Origin: Candidatus Aerophobetes bacterium Ae_b3b
Lineage (GTDB): Bacteria; Aerophobota; Aerophobia; Aerophobales; AE-B3A
Assembly: GCA_005223085.1 (NCBI GenBank)
Contig: NJBP01000076.1
Coordinates: 1 to 7,551, forward strand
Direction of reading: 5' to 3'
DNA length: 7,551 nt
The translations under genes were made by a program, and so were the position numbers. Shown one piece after another: positions 1 through 7,551 of the stretch (position 1 is the stretch's first letter; the number at the start of each line of letters is the position of its first letter). Below the pieces are notes generated by a model, which was not told the DNA's origin, did no database searches, and was given only the letters and a program-made list of their open reading frames with translations.

Positions 1-1230
1 AACCAGGGAAACATTGGTAGAGCTCGAAGCAACGTTTGGTTTTGAGAGCCTTCTTCCTATCCCCGAAGAGACGTCCCCTGCTTGCAGCGTGTCTTCCCGT
101 CCCAGCACAACGGCTCTCTCAATGACGTTCTCCAGCTCCCTCACATTACCCGGCCACTCATAGTCCACTAGCAATCTCAGGGCATGGGCAGAGATAGTCT
201 TTGTCTTCTTGGTATCTCGACTCTTGTACTTTCGTAGAAAATGGTCCGCCAATAGAGAAATGTCTTCTTTTCTTTCACGCAAAGCAGGAACATAAATCGA
301 GACCACATTTAGACGATAATATAGGTCTTCTCTGAAGGCTTCCTTCCTCATAAGTTCTTCCAAATTCTTGTTGGTAGCAGCAATAAGACGGGTGTTAACC
401 TTTATGGGTTTGGTACCTCCTAATCTCTCGAAGGTGCGATCTTGAACAGCTCTTAGTATCTTAGCTTGCATGGCTAGGCTCATATCGGCAACTTCATCCA
501 GAAAAAGAGTTCCATCGGAGGCTAGTTCAAATTTGCCTGGTTTGCCCTTATTAGCATCGGTAAAAGCTCCCTTTTCGTACCCGAAAAGCTCACTTTCCAG
601 AAGGGCCTCTGGTATTGCAGCACAGTTTAGCGCTACGAAAGGTTTATCGCTTCTAGGACCATTATCGTGAATAGTTGTAGCTACCAGTTCTTTACCGGTA
701 CCGCTCTCTCCACGGATGAGCACAGTGCAGTCGCTATGAGCAACTATTCTGATTATCTCGAAGACGAACTTCATCTTATCACTTTTGCCGATGATATTGT
801 CAAACTGAGATTTTCGGGCTAGCTCTTGGCGCAGACGTCGGTTCTCTCGCTCCAGGCTCCTAATATAGAGGGCTCTTTTGATGACAATCTTCATTTCTTC
901 AAAATCAAACGGTTTGGAGAAGTAATCATAGGCACCATCACTTATAGCTCTCAAGGATGTCTCTTGTTCCCGATCCCCGGTGATAACCACTACCTTAATC
1001 TCCGAATCAGTCTTTCTCATCTCCTCCAGTGTCTTCATTCCTTCCTCAGGGGTATTAACTTCAGGGGGAAGATGCAAATCCAGCAATACTAAGTCCGCTG
1101 GGGTTTTTCTCATTACTTCACACGCTTGAGACCTATCCTCAGCTTGCAAGACCTCGTATGAATCTTTTAAGGTCCGATATATTAGTTCCCTCAGGTCTTT
1201 GTCGTCCTCAACCACCAGGACTTTGTTCAT
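1..1230 (-). CDS. NtrC-family sigma-54-dependent response regulator, 3' end cut off by the window
   Basis: This gene reads without a stop for 410 codons from ATG at 1230 to the window edge. The receiver domain (about 1-120) has the acidic pocket E8/D9/D10, phospho-acceptor D51, T84 and K106. The loop after D51 (DLHLPPEVNTPEEGMK) is longer than the usual D-x-x-MP-x-x-DG form. The sigma-54 AAA+ domain (about 144-375) has Walker A GESGTGKE (174-181), a GAFTGA-loop variant GAFTDA (221-226), Walker B GTLFLDE (240-246), RLIAATN (281-287), the arginine-finger block FREDLYYRLNV (299-309) and sensor II WPGNVRELEN (359-368). The family normally ends in a Fis-type helix-turn-helix at about 450-470 residues, so that part lies outside the window. 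Members use ATP hydrolysis to open sigma-54 promoters once phosphorylated. It is divergent from the hybrid kinase at 1611, a plausible but unproven partner. The family assignment is very secure; the target genes are unknown. Confidence 0.96.
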   Translation of the reverse strand, partial: MNKVLVVEDDKDLRELIYRTLKDSYEVLQAEDRSQACEVMRKTPADLVLLDLHLPPEVNTPEEGMKTLEEMRKTDSEIKVVVITGDREQETSLRAISDGAYDYFSKPFDFEEMKIVIKRALYIRSLERENRRLRQELARKSQFDNIIGKSDKMKFVFEIIRIVAHSDCTVLIRGESGTGKELVATTIHDNGPRSDKPFVALNCAAIPEALLESELFGYEKGAFTDANKGKPGKFELASDGTLFLDEVADMSLAMQAKILRAVQDRTFERLGGTKPIKVNTRLIAATNKNLEELMRKEAFREDLYYRLNVVSIYVPALRERKEDISLLADHFLRKYKSRDTKKTKTISAHALRLLVDYEWPGNVRELENVIERAVVLGREDTLQAGDVSSGIGRRLSKPNVASSSTNVSLV

Positions 1231-1236
1231 TTACAG

Positions 1237-1242
1237 TCCTTA
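1237..1242 (-). promoter_or_regulatory. Ribosome binding site of the response regulator
   Basis: On the minus strand TAAGGA lies 6 nt upstream of the ATG at 1230. This spacing supports that start, which also places the receiver's first beta strand (KVLVVEDD) directly at the N-terminus, as expected for the family. Confidence 0.75.
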
Positions 1243-1260
1243 CAAAGGTTCTAATTCATT

Positions 1261-1319
1261 AGATACGAGATCTCAGGCCAAGTTGTTGTTCAGCTCAGGT
1301 ATCTTGCTCTCCGGCCTGA
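1261..1319 (-). promoter_or_regulatory. Interleaved inverted repeats in the regulator's 5' leader (possible pseudoknot or switch)
   Basis: In the minus-strand leader, TCAGGCC (1319-1313) can pair with GGCCTGA (1279-1273). AGATAC (1304-1299) can pair with GTATCT (1266-1261). The arms are interleaved in the order A, B, A', B'. They could therefore form a pseudoknot or two competing hairpins about 18 nt upstream of the ribosome binding site. The stretch 1267-1274 is also a perfect palindrome (GAGATCTC). The arms are short, so chance is a real alternative. Confidence 0.25.
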
Positions 1320-1362
1320 ATATCCTAATGAGTACTGTTTTTTCTTCCATACGACCACATAT

Positions 1363-1390
1363 ATTATAATACATCACCGCGTAAAGTCAA
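1363..1390 (-). promoter_or_regulatory. Predicted sigma-70 promoter of the response regulator
   Basis: On the minus strand TTGACT (1390-1385) is followed after 16 bp by a perfect TATAAT (1368-1363). Transcription would start near 1356, giving a leader of about 125 nt before the regulator's ATG. The boxes match the housekeeping consensus at 11 of 12 positions. The predicted regulator is thus probably made from a vegetative promoter rather than a sigma-54 one. Confidence 0.65.
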
Positions 1391-1461
1391 CAGGATGCTC
1401 CAAGTACAGACCAAAAAGCAAAAGCGCACTGTGGGAACCGAGTCAATCCTGGGGAGGGGAG

Positions 1462-1489
1462 TTGACACTGGATTAATTTTGTCTATAAT
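1462..1489 (+). promoter_or_regulatory. Predicted sigma-70 promoter of the hybrid kinase
   Basis: TTGACA (1462-1467) and TATAAT (1484-1489) match the housekeeping consensus perfectly and are separated by 16 bp. Transcription would start near 1496, giving a leader of about 115 nt before the kinase ATG. The -35 box faces the divergent promoter's -35 box about 70 bp away, so a regulator bound between them could affect both genes. A GTCAA at 1442-1446 forms an inverted repeat with TTGAC at 1462-1466 (15-nt gap), a possible but weak operator. Confidence 0.7.
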
Positions 1490-1517
1490 AGAGCCAACCC
1501 GATCGAGACCGAGAGGG

Positions 1518-1546
1518 CGGCCAGAACATCTGCGATCATCTGGCTG
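1518..1546 (+). promoter_or_regulatory. Hairpin in the kinase 5' leader
   Basis: CGGCCAGA (1518-1525) pairs with TCTGGCTG (1539-1546), making an 8-bp stem with one G-U pair and a 13-nt loop. Inside the loop ATC (1528-1530) can pair with GAT (1534-1536). The hairpin begins about 20 nt after the predicted transcription start and has no T-run behind it, so it is not a terminator. It could stabilise the mRNA or act as a control element; no riboswitch class is recognised. Confidence 0.35.
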
Positions 1547-1581
1547 AGGCAAAGGAGTTTCTCACGAACGGGGGAGATCAA

Positions 1582-1614
1582 ATGAGCAGTTGGCATAGGA
1601 GTTTGTCAAAATGA
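1582..1614 (+). CDS. Possible 10-residue leader peptide, translationally coupled to the kinase
   Basis: ATG at 1582 opens a ten-codon frame (MSSWHRSLSK) that stops at TGA 1612-1614. It has a strong Shine-Dalgarno (GGGGGAG, 1570-1576) five nucleotides upstream, better placed than the kinase's own TAGGAG (1596-1601, 9-nt spacing), which lies inside this small frame. The stop overlaps the kinase start as ATGA (1611-1614), the classic arrangement for ribosome re-initiation. Nothing in the peptide points to an attenuation mechanism (no runs of one amino acid). The frame is open back to 1492 but has no better start. It may be a real leader peptide or chance; the strong site and exact overlap favour translation. 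Confidence 0.45.
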   Translation: MSSWHRSLSK

Positions 1615-4600
1615 GAGATGAACAGAAGACAAAGATTGAGCTTATTGGTCAACTGAAAGCTCTTCGTCAACGAGTCGCTCAATTGGAAGCATCGGAGGCC
1701 GAACAGAAGAGAATACAGGAGAGACTCAGGGAGAGCAAGAAGAGGATAGAGAACATACTCAATTTTTATCCGGACATCATTGTAGTGACCGACTTAAGTG
1801 GAAAGATAGTTGAGTGCAACCGAGCAGCCCCTCATCTGTTGCGACTCTCCACGACGGGGGAACTGGTTGGCAAAAGTGCTTTTGACTTGATTTCTCCAGA
1901 AGACCGAGAAAAGGTCCGAGCTGAGATGCGGAAGATTCTAAGCCAAGGTTACATAGAGGGCGCAGAATACACCCTTTTATGGCCGGACGGTAGCAAGTTT
2001 CCTGCCGAGGTCTCCGGCACCCTTATTCGAGACTTCCTCGGTAACCCCACATCTTTCATACTGATAATGAAAGACCTTGCTCGACAGAAGAAGGCGGAGC
2101 AAACCCTGCGGAAGAGCATGCATGAGCTTGGCGAGCGGGTCAAGGAGCTCAACTGCCTCTATGGTATTGCGCAGTTGACTGATAGGCACGATGGGCTGGA
2201 GGAGTTACTTGAAGGCACCCTTGAGCTCATCCCTCCTGCCTGGCAGTATCCAGGGATTACCTGTGCAAGAATCACTCTGGAAGATCAGATATTCAAGACG
2301 AGCAACTTCAGAGAAACGGCCTGGAAGCAGAGCTCCGACATTGTAGTGCAAGACAAGAAAGTCGGCACTGTAGAGGTCTTCTACCTGGAAGAAAAACCAA
2401 AGAGTCATGAGGGGCCTTTCCTTAAGGAAGAGAGTAGTCTTCTTGACGCTATTACGGAACGATTGGCAAGAATCGTCGAGCTGAAGGGCACAGAGCGGGC
2501 GCTGAGAGAATCGAGAGAGAAACTGCAAAACGTACTGGCCTCCTCCCCTGATGCTATTACTGTCAGCGATCTAAAGGGAAATATCATTGAATGTAACCAA
2601 GCAACTCTGGACCTACATGGTTTCTCTTCCAAGGACGAAATAATCGGCAAGAATGCTTTTGATTTCATTGCCCCCAAAGATCATAAGAGGGCATTGGAGA
2701 ATATGAAAAAAACCATCAAAGAAGATTCCGTCAAGGATGTAGAATACACCTTCTTGAATAAAGACGGTAGTGAGTTTCCAGCGGAGCTTTCTGCAAGCAT
2801 TATCCGGGACTCAGCTGGTAGACCTACATCCTTCGTCGCTATAACTAAAGACATCACCGAGCGCAGGCGGGCAGAGAAGGTACTGCAGGACAGTGAGAGG
2901 CGGTATCGTCTCCTCGCCGATAACGTAACTGATGTCATCTGGACCACAGATATGAATCTGAATCTCACCTATATCAGTCCGTCGGTTACGCATCTGATGG
3001 GATATAGCCTTGAAGAAGTGATGGCTCTTAGACTGGCAGAGATCTTGGTCCCTGATTCCTTCCTGTCAGTCATGAAGGTCTTTGAAGAAGAACGGTCCGC
3101 AGGAAGTAAGAAAGGAAGGGGTCCTCGTCGGCGACCAACACTGGAGCTTGAAGTCAATTGTAAGGATGGCTCCACAGTGTGGACCGAGACCAAGATGACT
3201 TACCTGCGTGATGCATACGGGAAGACGATGGGAATTTCTGGAGTCACGCGCGATATCACCCTGCGCAAGAAAATGGAAAAAAGACTAGTGGAATATACTA
3301 GGAAACTGACAGCGAGAAACAGACAGCTTAGAGTAGAGACCGGAAGAGCCAGGAGAGCAGAAGAAGCTTCAAAGAGGGAGCAGGAGAAGCTAAGAGAGTC
3401 TCAACAGAGATACAGGGCGTTGTTTGAAGGTGCTGCTGAAGGGATACTTGTCGCAGACATCGAAACAAAGCAGTTCAAATATGCCAATCCAGCCATATGT
3501 CAGATGTTAGGCTATAATGAGGAAGAATTGAAACGCATGGGTATGCGTAATATTCATCCCAAAGAGGATTTGGACTATGTGATTTCTGAGTTCGAGGCCC
3601 AGTCACGAGGAGAAAAAACGTTGTCGCCAAGCATTCCGTGTCTGCGAAAAGACGGGACAACAATATATGCGGATATCAACGCAGCCAAGGTCTCGATGGA
3701 TGGAAGAGAATACAACCTAGGTTTATTTAAAGACATCACCCGGAGGAGGCAAGCAGAGAAAAAAATGGAGGAATACGCCGAAGAGTTGGCGGAAAAAAAC
3801 GAAGAGCTGAAGGTGGAGACCGAAAAGGCCAAGGAGGCCGATCGCCTTAAATCCGAGTTCCTAGCTAGTGTGAGTCATGAGATTAGGACCCCTCTTAGCA
3901 CTATCAAGGGAGCCACTTATCTTTTGAACAAAAGCTCTCTTTCTGAAGAACAGAGAAGGTTCTGTTCCATGATCAGGGACAGCGGAGAACACCTGCTTCG
4001 GATAATCAACGATATTTTAGATCTTGCCCGAATTGAGGCAGGACAGGCAAGACTCGAAGAGAAAGAGTTGCCTCTAAAGGAGCTTGTGGAAAAGACAGTC
4101 TTTGGTTTTGAGCTCCGGGCGAAAAGGAAAGGGTTAGAGCTTAATACCATCTATCCTTCCGATCTTCCTCTAGAAATCCGGGCCGATGAAGGAAAACTCA
4201 GCCAAGTTCTTACCAATCTGGTTGATAATGCTCTAAAGTTCACCCAGCAGGGAAAAGTAGAGGTAAAGCTAGAAAAGCTAGCTGATCTCAATATCCGACT
4301 TCAGGTCAAAGACACCGGGATTGGAATTTCCGAACAAAAACTCTCACGCATTTTTGAAAAGTTCTACCAGGTAGATGGAACCAGTAGAAGGAAATATGAA
4401 GGCACAGGATTAGGACTCACCATAGTCAGAGAGCTAGCCAAACTCATGGCAGGAAAAATAGAGGCGAGGTCCAGATTGGGAAAAGGATCGACTTTTTCCT
4501 TTACCTTCCCTTACAGCGCTGCGAAGCAAAGGATGGTTCAAGCCGAGGACCAGGCTAAGCCTAAAACGAAACAGCAACTCAGAAAAGAGATAAATATCCT

Positions 4601-4985
4601 AATTGCCGAGGACGATGACTCGGGCTACTACATAATGGAGAGTCTTTTAGATGATTATACTACCAGCCGGGCCGTAGACGGAAGAGAGGTCCTAGAGAAG
4701 ATAAGGGAGAAAGATTACGATCTCGTTCTCATGGATATTCAGATGCCAGAAATGGATGGCCTTAAGGCAACGAGAAAGATTAGAGAGAAGGACTCAACTC
4801 TCCCTATTATTGCCCTCACCGCCAAAGCAATGAAAGGTGATAGAGAGAGCTGTCTAGAGGCTGGCTGCAGTGACTACCTGTCCAAACCCATAGAACCAGA
4901 GGAATTAATAGCCAAAGTAAGTCAATATCTCCCCAGAAAAGCTCGTCAGAAGGAAAATAGCCCTCCAGGATCAAATTCCCAATAG
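1611..4985 (+). CDS. Soluble multi-PAS hybrid sensor histidine kinase with C-terminal receiver
   Basis: This 1124-residue protein has no signal peptide or membrane segment, so it should sense in the cytoplasm. It opens with a charged coiled coil (about 1-45), then PAS1 (44-160). Next is a GAF-like segment (about 175-290, with ELNCLYGIAQL and IPPAWQYPGITCARI) common in PAS kinases of anaerobes. PAS2 (303-418), PAS3 (430-552), PAS4 (600-712) and a second coiled coil (712-748) follow. The HisKA dimerisation domain carries phospho-acceptor H756 in SHEIRTP. The ATPase domain has the N box (N873 in NLVDNALKF), DTGIG (901-905) and GTGLGL (931-936). The C-terminal receiver (about 993-1112) has E1000/D1001/D1002, D1042, T1070 and K1092. 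All catalytic residues are present. There is no HPt domain, so onward transfer would need a separate protein, or the receiver may be a regulatory sink. PAS1 and PAS2 look like a tandem duplication. The ligand is unknown; I see no haem or flavin signature. It is divergent from the sigma-54 regulator, a candidate partner. Confidence 0.96.
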   Translation: MRDEQKTKIELIGQLKALRQRVAQLEASEAEQKRIQERLRESKKRIENILNFYPDIIVVTDLSGKIVECNRAAPHLLRLSTTGELVGKSAFDLISPEDREKVRAEMRKILSQGYIEGAEYTLLWPDGSKFPAEVSGTLIRDFLGNPTSFILIMKDLARQKKAEQTLRKSMHELGERVKELNCLYGIAQLTDRHDGLEELLEGTLELIPPAWQYPGITCARITLEDQIFKTSNFRETAWKQSSDIVVQDKKVGTVEVFYLEEKPKSHEGPFLKEESSLLDAITERLARIVELKGTERALRESREKLQNVLASSPDAITVSDLKGNIIECNQATLDLHGFSSKDEIIGKNAFDFIAPKDHKRALENMKKTIKEDSVKDVEYTFLNKDGSEFPAELSASIIRDSAGRPTSFVAITKDITERRRAEKVLQDSERRYRLLADNVTDVIWTTDMNLNLTYISPSVTHLMGYSLEEVMALRLAEILVPDSFLSVMKVFEEERSAGSKKGRGPRRRPTLELEVNCKDGSTVWTETKMTYLRDAYGKTMGISGVTRDITLRKKMEKRLVEYTRKLTARNRQLRVETGRARRAEEASKREQEKLRESQQRYRALFEGAAEGILVADIETKQFKYANPAICQMLGYNEEELKRMGMRNIHPKEDLDYVISEFEAQSRGEKTLSPSIPCLRKDGTTIYADINAAKVSMDGREYNLGLFKDITRRRQAEKKMEEYAEELAEKNEELKVETEKAKEADRLKSEFLASVSHEIRTPLSTIKGATYLLNKSSLSEEQRRFCSMIRDSGEHLLRIINDILDLARIEAGQARLEEKELPLKELVEKTVFGFELRAKRKGLELNTIYPSDLPLEIRADEGKLSQVLTNLVDNALKFTQQGKVEVKLEKLADLNIRLQVKDTGIGISEQKLSRIFEKFYQVDGTSRRKYEGTGLGLTIVRELAKLMAGKIEARSRLGKGSTFSFTFPYSAAKQRMVQAEDQAKPKTKQQLRKEINILIAEDDDSGYYIMESLLDDYTTSRAVDGREVLEKIREKDYDLVLMDIQMPEMDGLKATRKIREKDSTLPIIALTAKAMKGDRESCLEAGCSDYLSKPIEPEELIAKVSQYLPRKARQKENSPPGSNSQ

Positions 4986-5073
4986 CTTTGCTGCGCTGCT
5001 GGCTCCAGGGTGGGGACGTTACGAAGTTAGGACTTTTTTTAGAACACTACACTATAACGGGAGGTAGATCGCG
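4986..5073 (+). other. Short gap between kinase and exported hydrolase, no clear terminator
   Basis: These 88 bp contain a run of seven T (5034-5040), but I find no GC-rich hairpin directly before it. The only stem nearby is a 4-bp CTGG/CCAG. TATAAC at 5053-5058 resembles a -10 box, but it has no -35 partner and would start transcription almost at the ribosome binding site. Read-through from the kinase gene is the simplest reading. Confidence 0.5.
5059..5064 (+). promoter_or_regulatory. Ribosome binding site of the S10-GH16 fusion gene
   Basis: GGGAGG lies 9 nt upstream of the ATG at 5074. That start gives a protein beginning MKK followed by a hydrophobic core, a typical export signal, which supports the choice. 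Confidence 0.75.
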
Positions 5074-7266
5074 ATGAAGAAAGCTATTCTCATCGAATTG
5101 GCCGTTTTGGGATTAGGCATTATGATTGGGGGTCTTTCTCTGTCCGCACTTGCTCGAACAAACCAAACCGACAGTGAGGCGATGGCGACTTATCCCAGGA
5201 CCTCTTCGGTGACCCAACACAAAATGACACTTGATGGCGAGCCTTTGTTTTATAAGGCAACCACTGGCTTCCTACCTTACTACAATAAAAAAGGTAAGAA
5301 GAGAACACAAATCTTCTATACGGCCTATACTAGAGAGCGCATCCCACGGACGTCAACTCGTCCCCTTACCATAGTCTGTGGCGGGGGTCCTGGAGTCTCG
5401 TCTATTTATCTGCACATAGGGGGTTTCGGTCCTAAGGTGGTTCCTTTGGGAAACGGAATTGACCTCCCCAGACCCCCCTATCGAGTCGTCGACAATAAGA
5501 ATACTCTTCTGGGTATGACAGATCTCGTCTTTGTCGACCCTGTCGGTACTGGATTCAGTGAAGTCATTGAGGAGGGTAAGGAAGAGCTCTTCTGGGGGCT
5601 GGAAGAAGATGTTGACTCGATGGCTGAGTTCATCCGCATCTACCTTGCGCGGAATGGGCGTTGGAAATCTCCGCTCTTCATCGCCGGGGGAAGTCATGGT
5701 GGTATCCGGGCGGCTCGGCTCTCCGCACGCCTTCAGGACATGGGAATCCATCTGGTGGGAATCATTCTCATATCCCCGGCACTCCGCTACACCAGTTTGA
5801 TTGATGTTCCCGGAAACGACATCCCCTACATTCATAATCTATCCGCCATGGCCGCGGCAGCCTGGTATCACCAGAAAATAGATGCCCGGTACCGAAAAGT
5901 AAATCTGGACGGTCTCGTGAAAGAGGTTCGTTCCTGGGCTGAACACGAATATGCCGCGGCGCTCTGGCAAGGAAACGCACTTCCCGAAGCAAAGTACACA
6001 GAAGTTGCCCGCCAGCTTGCCGCTTACACCGGTTTATCAGAAGAAGTAATTAGGGCGCATAACCTAAGAGTCCCTATGTATCGGTTCCTGGGAACACTAT
6101 TACAAAAGGAACGACGCTCAATCAGTTTCTATGATGGCCGGGCCACCGCTCACAGCATAGATTTTGATGAATACACTTTTATGGATGACCCTATAGCCGT
6201 AAACACCTTTGGTCCTCTGTATACTGCCTTCAACAGCTACCTTGAGGAGAACTTGCAGTTTAGTACCGATAGAAAGTACATTGCCATAAACCGTGATATT
6301 GAAGATAGCTCCGACGGGGCCTCTGGAATACCGGCAGGGGGTAGGCGATATCCGGAAACCTTCGCCAGCCTCGCTTCGGCCCTCAGAAAAGCGAATTTTC
6401 TCAGGGCATTCGTTGCCATCGGCCTGTTCGATATGGCCTTTGTTCATGATGCTACCGTCTACGAGATTCACCGAATGGACCTTCCCCGAAAAATCCTTGA
6501 CAACATCACTGTTACAACCTATCCCGCAGGTCACATGATATATCTCGATCCCTCCTCTCACCAGAAGCTAAAAGAAAACTTACTCTGGTTCTACCAAGGC
6601 CTCAGGACAACCAGGTTCTCTAACTACAACTGGTTTGTGAAGACCAGTAGACAAAGGAGAACTGGGCCAGAATCAAATTATTTCTCAGATAGTAAGGAAA
6701 ATGTGTGGGTTGATAGTGAGGGACGATTACATTTGAAGATTACCAGAAGAAATGGAAAGTGGTATGGTGCAGAAGTTTTTTCTGAGAAGAGCTTTGGATA
6801 TGGGAAATACATCTTCTACCTAACAAGCAGAGTTGAGGAATTAGACCAGAATGTTGTTCTTGGTTTCTTTACTTGGGACAACCCTCCTGACTATAACCAT
6901 CGTGAGATTGACATTGAGTTTTCGAGGTGGGGCAAACAAAAAGAGAAAAACACACAGTTCGTGATACAACCGTGGACTCATCCTGCAAACATTCACAGGT
7001 TCGATACTCAACTGAAAGAGAATTACTCAACGCACAGTTTTGACTGGAGGAGGGAAAGCATATTCTTCCAAAGCCTTTATGGACATCATCGCACTCCTCC
7101 GAATGAGGGTTACATAATTGAATTGTGGAACTACGCTGGAAGGAGTATCCCCAGGCCTGGCAACGAAAAGACAAGGATTAACCTATGGCTATCCAAGGGC
7201 AATCCCCCTTCTGACAATATGGAAGCTGAAGTTGTTATCGAGAAGTTTGAATTTATTCCCCCGTAA
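5074..7266 (+). CDS. Exported S10 serine-peptidase-like hydrolase fused to a GH16-type glucanase domain
   Basis: The 730-residue product starts with a signal peptide (MKK, hydrophobic 4-26, likely cut after SALA at 27), so it acts outside the cytoplasm. Residues about 45-510 are a bacterial S10 (serine carboxypeptidase-like) alpha/beta hydrolase: GGGPG (103-107), PPYRVVDNKNTLL, LVFVDPVGTGFS (151-162), FWGLEEDV, nucleophile S207 in GGSHGG, D453 in GLFDMAF and H487 in PAGHMIYL. The triad is complete. However, the family's NGGPG Asn is G103 and the Glu of GESYG is G206. Residues about 515-730 form a GH16-like jelly roll with EIDIEF (611-616), where E611 would be the nucleophile and E615 the acid/base, plus FGYGKYIFYL and GNEKTRINLWL. 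GH16 enzymes cut beta-glucans and related polymers. The joint has almost no linker, and GC drops from about 56% in the S10 core to about 39% in the GH16 part. The fusion is clear in the sequence. Substrates are unknown, and an assembly join is not excluded. Confidence 0.9.
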   Translation: MKKAILIELAVLGLGIMIGGLSLSALARTNQTDSEAMATYPRTSSVTQHKMTLDGEPLFYKATTGFLPYYNKKGKKRTQIFYTAYTRERIPRTSTRPLTIVCGGGPGVSSIYLHIGGFGPKVVPLGNGIDLPRPPYRVVDNKNTLLGMTDLVFVDPVGTGFSEVIEEGKEELFWGLEEDVDSMAEFIRIYLARNGRWKSPLFIAGGSHGGIRAARLSARLQDMGIHLVGIILISPALRYTSLIDVPGNDIPYIHNLSAMAAAAWYHQKIDARYRKVNLDGLVKEVRSWAEHEYAAALWQGNALPEAKYTEVARQLAAYTGLSEEVIRAHNLRVPMYRFLGTLLQKERRSISFYDGRATAHSIDFDEYTFMDDPIAVNTFGPLYTAFNSYLEENLQFSTDRKYIAINRDIEDSSDGASGIPAGGRRYPETFASLASALRKANFLRAFVAIGLFDMAFVHDATVYEIHRMDLPRKILDNITVTTYPAGHMIYLDPSSHQKLKENLLWFYQGLRTTRFSNYNWFVKTSRQRRTGPESNYFSDSKENVWVDSEGRLHLKITRRNGKWYGAEVFSEKSFGYGKYIFYLTSRVEELDQNVVLGFFTWDNPPDYNHREIDIEFSRWGKQKEKNTQFVIQPWTHPANIHRFDTQLKENYSTHSFDWRRESIFFQSLYGHHRTPPNEGYIIELWNYAGRSIPRPGNEKTRINLWLSKGNPPSDNMEAEVVIEKFEFIPP

Positions 7267-7287: not shown

Positions 7288-7431
7288 TCAGACCACTCCT
7301 TTGGCAAGCCTCGCCCCGACCTGGGCAGTGAGATTGACTGATGAAACTTGCGCCATGCCGATTGGCAGGACAGCCACCAAACCTACCGGTGATTCAATAA
7401 CAATCAACCCTCGGTCCTGATAGACAAATTG
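7288..7431 (-). pseudogene. Relic of a phosphatidylserine-decarboxylase-family gene (C-terminal part)
   Basis: The minus strand reads 47 codons from 7431 to a TGA at 7290-7288. It contains RGLIVIESPVGLVAVLPIG followed by MAQVSSVNLTAQVG and ARLAKG. This matches the block near the C-terminus of phosphatidylserine-decarboxylase-related proteins (pattern ...IES-GLV-V-PIGM-EVSS--TV--G---KG). In whole enzymes that block is followed by the GYF-FGGST motif, where the chain self-cleaves to make the pyruvoyl cofactor; this motif is absent here. The frame is preceded by TAA (7434-7432) and has no start. On the same strand a strong AAGGAGG (7453-7447) and ATG (7439-7437) lie just upstream but two bases out of frame, and that frame stops at 7404. 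It is therefore truncated at both ends and cannot be active. It lies tail to tail with the fusion gene, 21 bp apart. Recognition is from memory of the family pattern. Confidence 0.6.
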
Positions 7432-7551
7432 TTAAGCATTACTAACCCTCCTTATCATTTCGTTCATGTTACTAGTAAGCATTAATAGTCATTTTTCAAG
7501 TGCATTCCAGGAAAACTGATAGATATTGCTGGGATTAAGGTGGATCTCTCA
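7432..7551. other. AT-rich end segment without a supportable gene
   Basis: This stretch holds the orphan Shine-Dalgarno/ATG of the decarboxylase relic. It also has two direct copies of TAAGCATTA (7433-7441 and 7476-7484) and the 10-bp palindrome TTACTAGTAA (7469-7478). On the minus strand a 22-codon frame enters from the right edge and stops at TAA 7484-7482, ending PGMHLKNDY. It could be the tail of a gene beyond the window, but it is too short to recognise. Confidence 0.4.

Follow-up and report, generated by a model that had tools for sequence, protein, structure and literature searches.

An unusual pairing of an S10-type hydrolase and a GH16 domain in one chain of a Candidatus Aerophobetes genome

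Introduction

Peptidase S10 and glycoside hydrolase family 16 (GH16) are enzyme families that normally work apart. One open reading frame of Candidatus Aerophobetes bacterium Ae_b3b places both in a single, apparently exported protein, which raises the question of whether the pairing is genuine, how it came about and whether each half still acts as an enzyme. The stretch of DNA analyzed here, referred to as the window, makes up the whole of contig C3, 7551 bases long, in a metagenome-type assembly (2.04 Mb, 86 contigs, 88.6% complete); the source bacterium is known from metagenome assembly only. The pairing of S10 and GH16 is real and unusual, it occurs in one genome, and both halves belong to known families. 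Its interest lies in a precise, apparently young end-to-end fusion in which the partner with the changed active site, S10, can be compared with an intact relative from a sister genome. The fusion opens no new kind of system; it offers a testable case of a secreted enzyme turned carrier or re-targeted after fusion.

One reading frame spans both halves

The open reading frame runs through 730 codons with no internal stop (Table 1). The original prediction had described an S10-like hydrolase joined to a GH16 glucanase fold in one chain, and the intact frame, together with structural models that support both folds, bears this out. The signal peptide proposed in front can be read in the sequence as a putative leader that begins with MKK and ends in LSLSALA before RT, with a putative cleavage site between SALA and RT; the homolog from a genome of the same family (G002) carries a similar one. 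The triad S207/D453/H487 is found at the residues predicted, and each of the three is invariant in 45 S10 relatives. Likewise, the predicted EIDIEF motif lies at residues 611 to 616, and its E611, D613 and E615 are invariant in 13 GH16 sequences; by homology, E611 would be the nucleophile and E615 the acid/base. An AlphaFold model of the full chain reached a mean pLDDT of 72.3, a confidence at which we left the packing of the domains across the joint uninterpreted.

Table 1 Features of the 7551-base window.
Feature	Position	Strand	Remarks
Sigma-54-type response regulator	1-1230	-	truncated by contig end
PAS-rich hybrid histidine kinase	1611-4985	+	
Fused ORF: export signal, S10-like half, GH16 half	5074-7266	+	730 aa
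Putative N-terminal export signal, residues ~1-27	5074-5154	+	from sequence; leader of G002 homolog similar
S10-type α/β-hydrolase half, residues ~40-508	5191-6597	+	Pfam, model, G002 homolog
G103	5380-5382	+	Asn in all 45 relatives, NGGPG motif
G206-S207-H208	5689-5697	+	GESYG site; nucleophile Ser kept, Glu and Tyr lost
D453	6430-6432	+	triad acid, invariant
H487	6532-6534	+	triad histidine, invariant
Joint, residues 508-514	6595-6615	+	linker absent; placed by ends of stand-alone homologs
GH16 jelly-roll half, residues 510-730	6601-7263	+	
EIDIEF, residues 611-616	6904-6921	+	GH16 catalytic strand, EXDXE type

Active-site losses in the S10-type half

The first half matches Peptidase_S10 (PF00450) at residues 69 to 222 with an E value of 1e-10, above the Pfam cut-off, and its model superimposes on cathepsin A (4cia) with a Z score of 29.7 over 350 aligned residues. 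Pfam and model together place it in the S10 family, with the α/β-hydrolase fold and a relationship to carboxypeptidase Y (CPY) and cathepsin A. It shares this fold (Z 28 to 30) and the Ser-Asp-His triad with cathepsin A, CPY and KEX1, but their Asn and Glu for carboxylate recognition are missing from it, as is the motif Tyr.

These losses stand out when the window copy is compared with the columns that are 95% conserved among the 45 aligned relatives. S207, D453 and H487 are kept, while N103 (Asn in 45 of 45), E206 (Glu in 44 of 45), Y208 (Tyr in 45 of 45) and W413 (Trp in 44 of 45, Ser here) are lost. The motifs NGGPG and GESYG, with their carboxylate-binding Asn and Glu, are therefore absent from the window copy, which reads GGGPG and GGSHG instead (N103G, E206G, Y208H). 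What had been called a full S10 site is thus full in its triad and broken in the motifs around it. The S10 homolog of G002 retains both NGGPG and GESYGG.

In CPY, Asn51 and Glu145 bind the C-terminal carboxylate of the substrate (compare Mortensen, Remington and Breddam 1994, cited in PMC6609556), and we take residues 103 and 206 of the window protein to be the equivalent positions. Since the Asn and the Glu that hold the free carboxylate of the substrate are both Gly here, the S10 half would no longer be a carboxypeptidase. It may instead be catalytically idle, serving as an export and folding module, or it may be altered in substrate.

A general relaxation of the S10 half was considered and rejected, as the relative-rate test between the window and G002 copies (24 vs 20 amino-acid changes) was not significant. 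Given such similar overall rates, the losses concentrate at the active site. The S10 dN/dS between the two copies is 0.33 (dN 0.18, dS 0.55), an average over both branches, compared with 0.13 (dN 0.22, dS 1.68) for the response regulators of this genome pair. The low dS suggests that the S10 gene may have moved between the lineages later than their split. Its G+C content is 50%, a value exceeded by 2.4% of sampled host stretches of 663 bases.

The GH16 half

The second half is more distant from characterized enzymes. A Pfam search of the window copy did not find GH16, and PF00722 gave a weak match in three of the 13 GH16 relatives; the NCBIfam BglS model matched with an E value of 1.2e-7 at 31.5 of 300 bits, below the cut-off of that equivalog. 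A single-sequence phmmer search reached a β-glucanase in the PDB at E 0.001, and with a profile built from the 13 relatives, lichenases of Bacillus were reached in the PDB at E 4e-7. Relatives of this half carry NCBI annotation as GH16. The AlphaFold model of this half (mean pLDDT 72.8) superimposes on lichenases (1u0a) with a Z score of 19.3 over 191 residues, an rmsd of 2.7 and a TM score of 0.72 to 0.75. Both the β-jelly-roll fold and the EXDXE catalytic motif of GH16 are present. With E611, D613 and E615 kept and only 3 of 35 conserved columns deviating, similar to the relatives, the GH16 half looks functional by its sequence.

The EXDXE strand type is that of lichenases and xyloglucan enzymes, and Tyr94 and Trp103 of 1GBG are subsite aromatics of the GH16_21 licheninases (PMC6827312). 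Although the window protein shares the jelly roll and the strand type with GH16_21 licheninases (1GBG, 3O5S; Z 19), it is ~22% identical to them; W601 in place of Tyr94, H609 in place of Trp103 and a score far under the BglS cut-off set it outside GH16_21. The subsite aromatics are partly lost. The half would act as a retaining endo-hydrolase on a β-glucan-like polymer.

The bifunctional enzyme originally proposed accordingly finds backing in the GH16 half, where all catalytic residues are kept, and loses it in the S10 half, where N103, E206 and Y208 are gone. A true two-enzyme protein would require the S10 half to have shifted to another ester or amide substrate, for example the acyl or peptide groups that decorate a glycan, with the backbone being cut by the GH16 half. 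We regard this as unlikely. It would agree with the invariant triad, with the constraint expressed in the pairwise dN/dS, with 508 codons free of stops and frameshifts, and with conserved-column changes that cluster at substrate-recognition positions instead of being scattered; moreover, plant proteins related to S10 serve as acyltransferases (PMC7330524). However, the loss of Asn, Glu and Tyr beside the oxyanion hole and the nucleophile is also to be expected of an inactive enzyme, and none of the 45 S10 relatives carries the same motif changes, so that there is no sign of a functional subfamily. A bolder form of this idea, which we hold to be very unlikely, is that the loss of carboxylate binding rebuilt the S10 half into an esterase, amidase or acyltransferase for glycan decorations, with the GH16 half cutting the backbone of the same glycan. 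If true, the protein would be a two-step glycan enzyme of a new type, and its bacterial S10 domain would be directed at carbohydrate.

The joint between the halves

The ends of stand-alone homologs fall at the joint from both sides. The S10 protein of G002 (L003) has 513 residues and is 71% identical to the first half, and its last residue aligns to residue 512 of the window protein; the DNA is 79% identical over positions 5043 to 6579 of the window, and the identity ends there. On the other side, a stand-alone protein of Priestia filamentosa annotated as GH16 (WP_063592775.1, 227 aa) is 46% identical across the whole second half and shares EIDIEF; its initiator Met aligns to residue 510, giving it the same N-terminal start, but it is unfused and has no S10 half. 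The natural end of S10 thus coincides with the natural start of GH16, which argues for a young gene fusion and not an artefact.

The account that we favor, and think probable with some reserve, is a natural, lineage-specific fusion with a working GH16 half and an S10 half that is no longer a carboxypeptidase. The gene for an exported S10 protein would have lost its stop codon and, through a small deletion or read-through, been fused in frame to the beginning of a GH16 gene, with no linker in between. The S10 leader would now export both halves as a single chain, in which the S10 domain is either idle or acts on a new ester or amide substrate. This proposal is predicted from sequence and models (mean pLDDT 72 to 73) and is built on one genome, one 7.5-kb contig and a single fused example.

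A rival account is an assembly or binning chimera, in which the assembler joined two unrelated genes. The protein comes from a single metagenome-assembled genome of 88.6% completeness, the other 16 genomes of the phylum comparison set (17 with the window's own) lack its GH16 type, and the G+C content drops at the joint from 50% in S10 to 42% in GH16. Against this, the frame is kept across the joint and each natural terminus falls no more than three residues away, which would be rare for a random join, and no repeat was seen at the joint. Moreover, the half that departs in G+C is S10, which has true homology in G002. A foreign composition had been expected of the GH16 half, but its G+C content equals the host mean of 42.4%, and S10 is the odd one. 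On this evidence a chimera is distinctly improbable.

The contig end is relevant here as well. The last 127 bases of the window (7425 to 7551) recur without change as the opening 127 bases of another contig of this genome, C34, and are 82% alike to G007:C106:6266-6394; here the assembly graph probably ended at a repeat or a conserved intergenic element. The exact 127-base overlap with C34 fits a graph with k = 127; in that case the 127-mers crossing the joint would all have come from reads.

It is also conceivable, if quite unlikely, that the S10 half represents a gene in decay, read through by accident into the GH16 gene, giving a fusion without a selected role. The motif losses, the raised dN/dS and the fact that this is the only S10 copy in the assembly would be expected of decay, but neither a frameshift nor a stop is present, the remaining conserved columns are kept, and the leader and about 30 bases upstream of the start still align with G002.

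Distribution of the pairing

The view that this pairing is not an established architecture holds for the collections covered here: no second S10+GH16 chain was found in about 570 genomes, in 72,556 plasmids or in a peptide-pattern scan of a genome collection. The genome-wide scan is not exhaustive and recovered five S10 relatives only. Among 386 sampled genomes, the GH16 type occurs in 14 and a close S10 in 29, the window's own being counted in both, and the window alone has both halves in one chain. Nor was the pair found among the other 16 genomes of the window's own phylum, in 111 genomes from the phylum of G320 or in 80 from that of G041; no plasmid locus covered 80% of the query, and no GH16 relative was found in phage records. 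A literature search turned up no paper on the S10+GH16 pair.

Outside the window, each half occurs in other company. Bacterial stand-alone proteins annotated as peptidase S10, such as the G002 protein and copies on Deinococcus plasmids, share the length, triad and fold of the first half; apart from the G002 protein, their identity to it is about 30 to 40%. They keep NGGPG and GESYG, and their chain ends where the window protein runs on into GH16. The original prediction had counted against a fused protein the case that close homologs always encode the halves as separate genes, and this is so for the single close S10 homolog, that of G002. Five long S10 reading frames (L028, L037, L041, L049 and L038) were without a second, non-hydrolase Pfam domain. 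The GH16 relatives either stand alone or carry CBM-like and type IX sorting modules; those with such tails (L014, L054 and L006) are of the same GH16 type, with up to 57% identity, and are coupled to other modules but never to S10.

Neighboring genes and related proteins

Upstream of the fused gene, the response regulator and the hybrid histidine kinase form a divergent pair (window 1 to 4985). A related regulator and kinase pair is found on contig C35 of G002, but the S10 gene is not adjacent to it there. The stretch that separates the kinase gene from the fused one showed no convincing promoter or terminator, and no tRNA or Rfam family was found in the window.

Several relatives showed arrangements of their own. 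Two S10 genes stand in tandem at locus L037 of genome G142. In three IMG/VR contigs (L055, L059 and L062), GH16-like domains with an intact EIDIEF lie within long proteins, some of which resemble tail or other virion proteins. On an Acidisarcina plasmid, a sensor histidine kinase is listed at the GH16 match. Finally, a Granulicella plasmid (L105) encodes an exported-looking GH16-like protein at 2030 to 3127 in which EMDIH replaces EXDXE, and its gene overlaps a sensor histidine kinase gene at 3102 to 5624; this protein might be an inactive GH16 that serves as a sensor.
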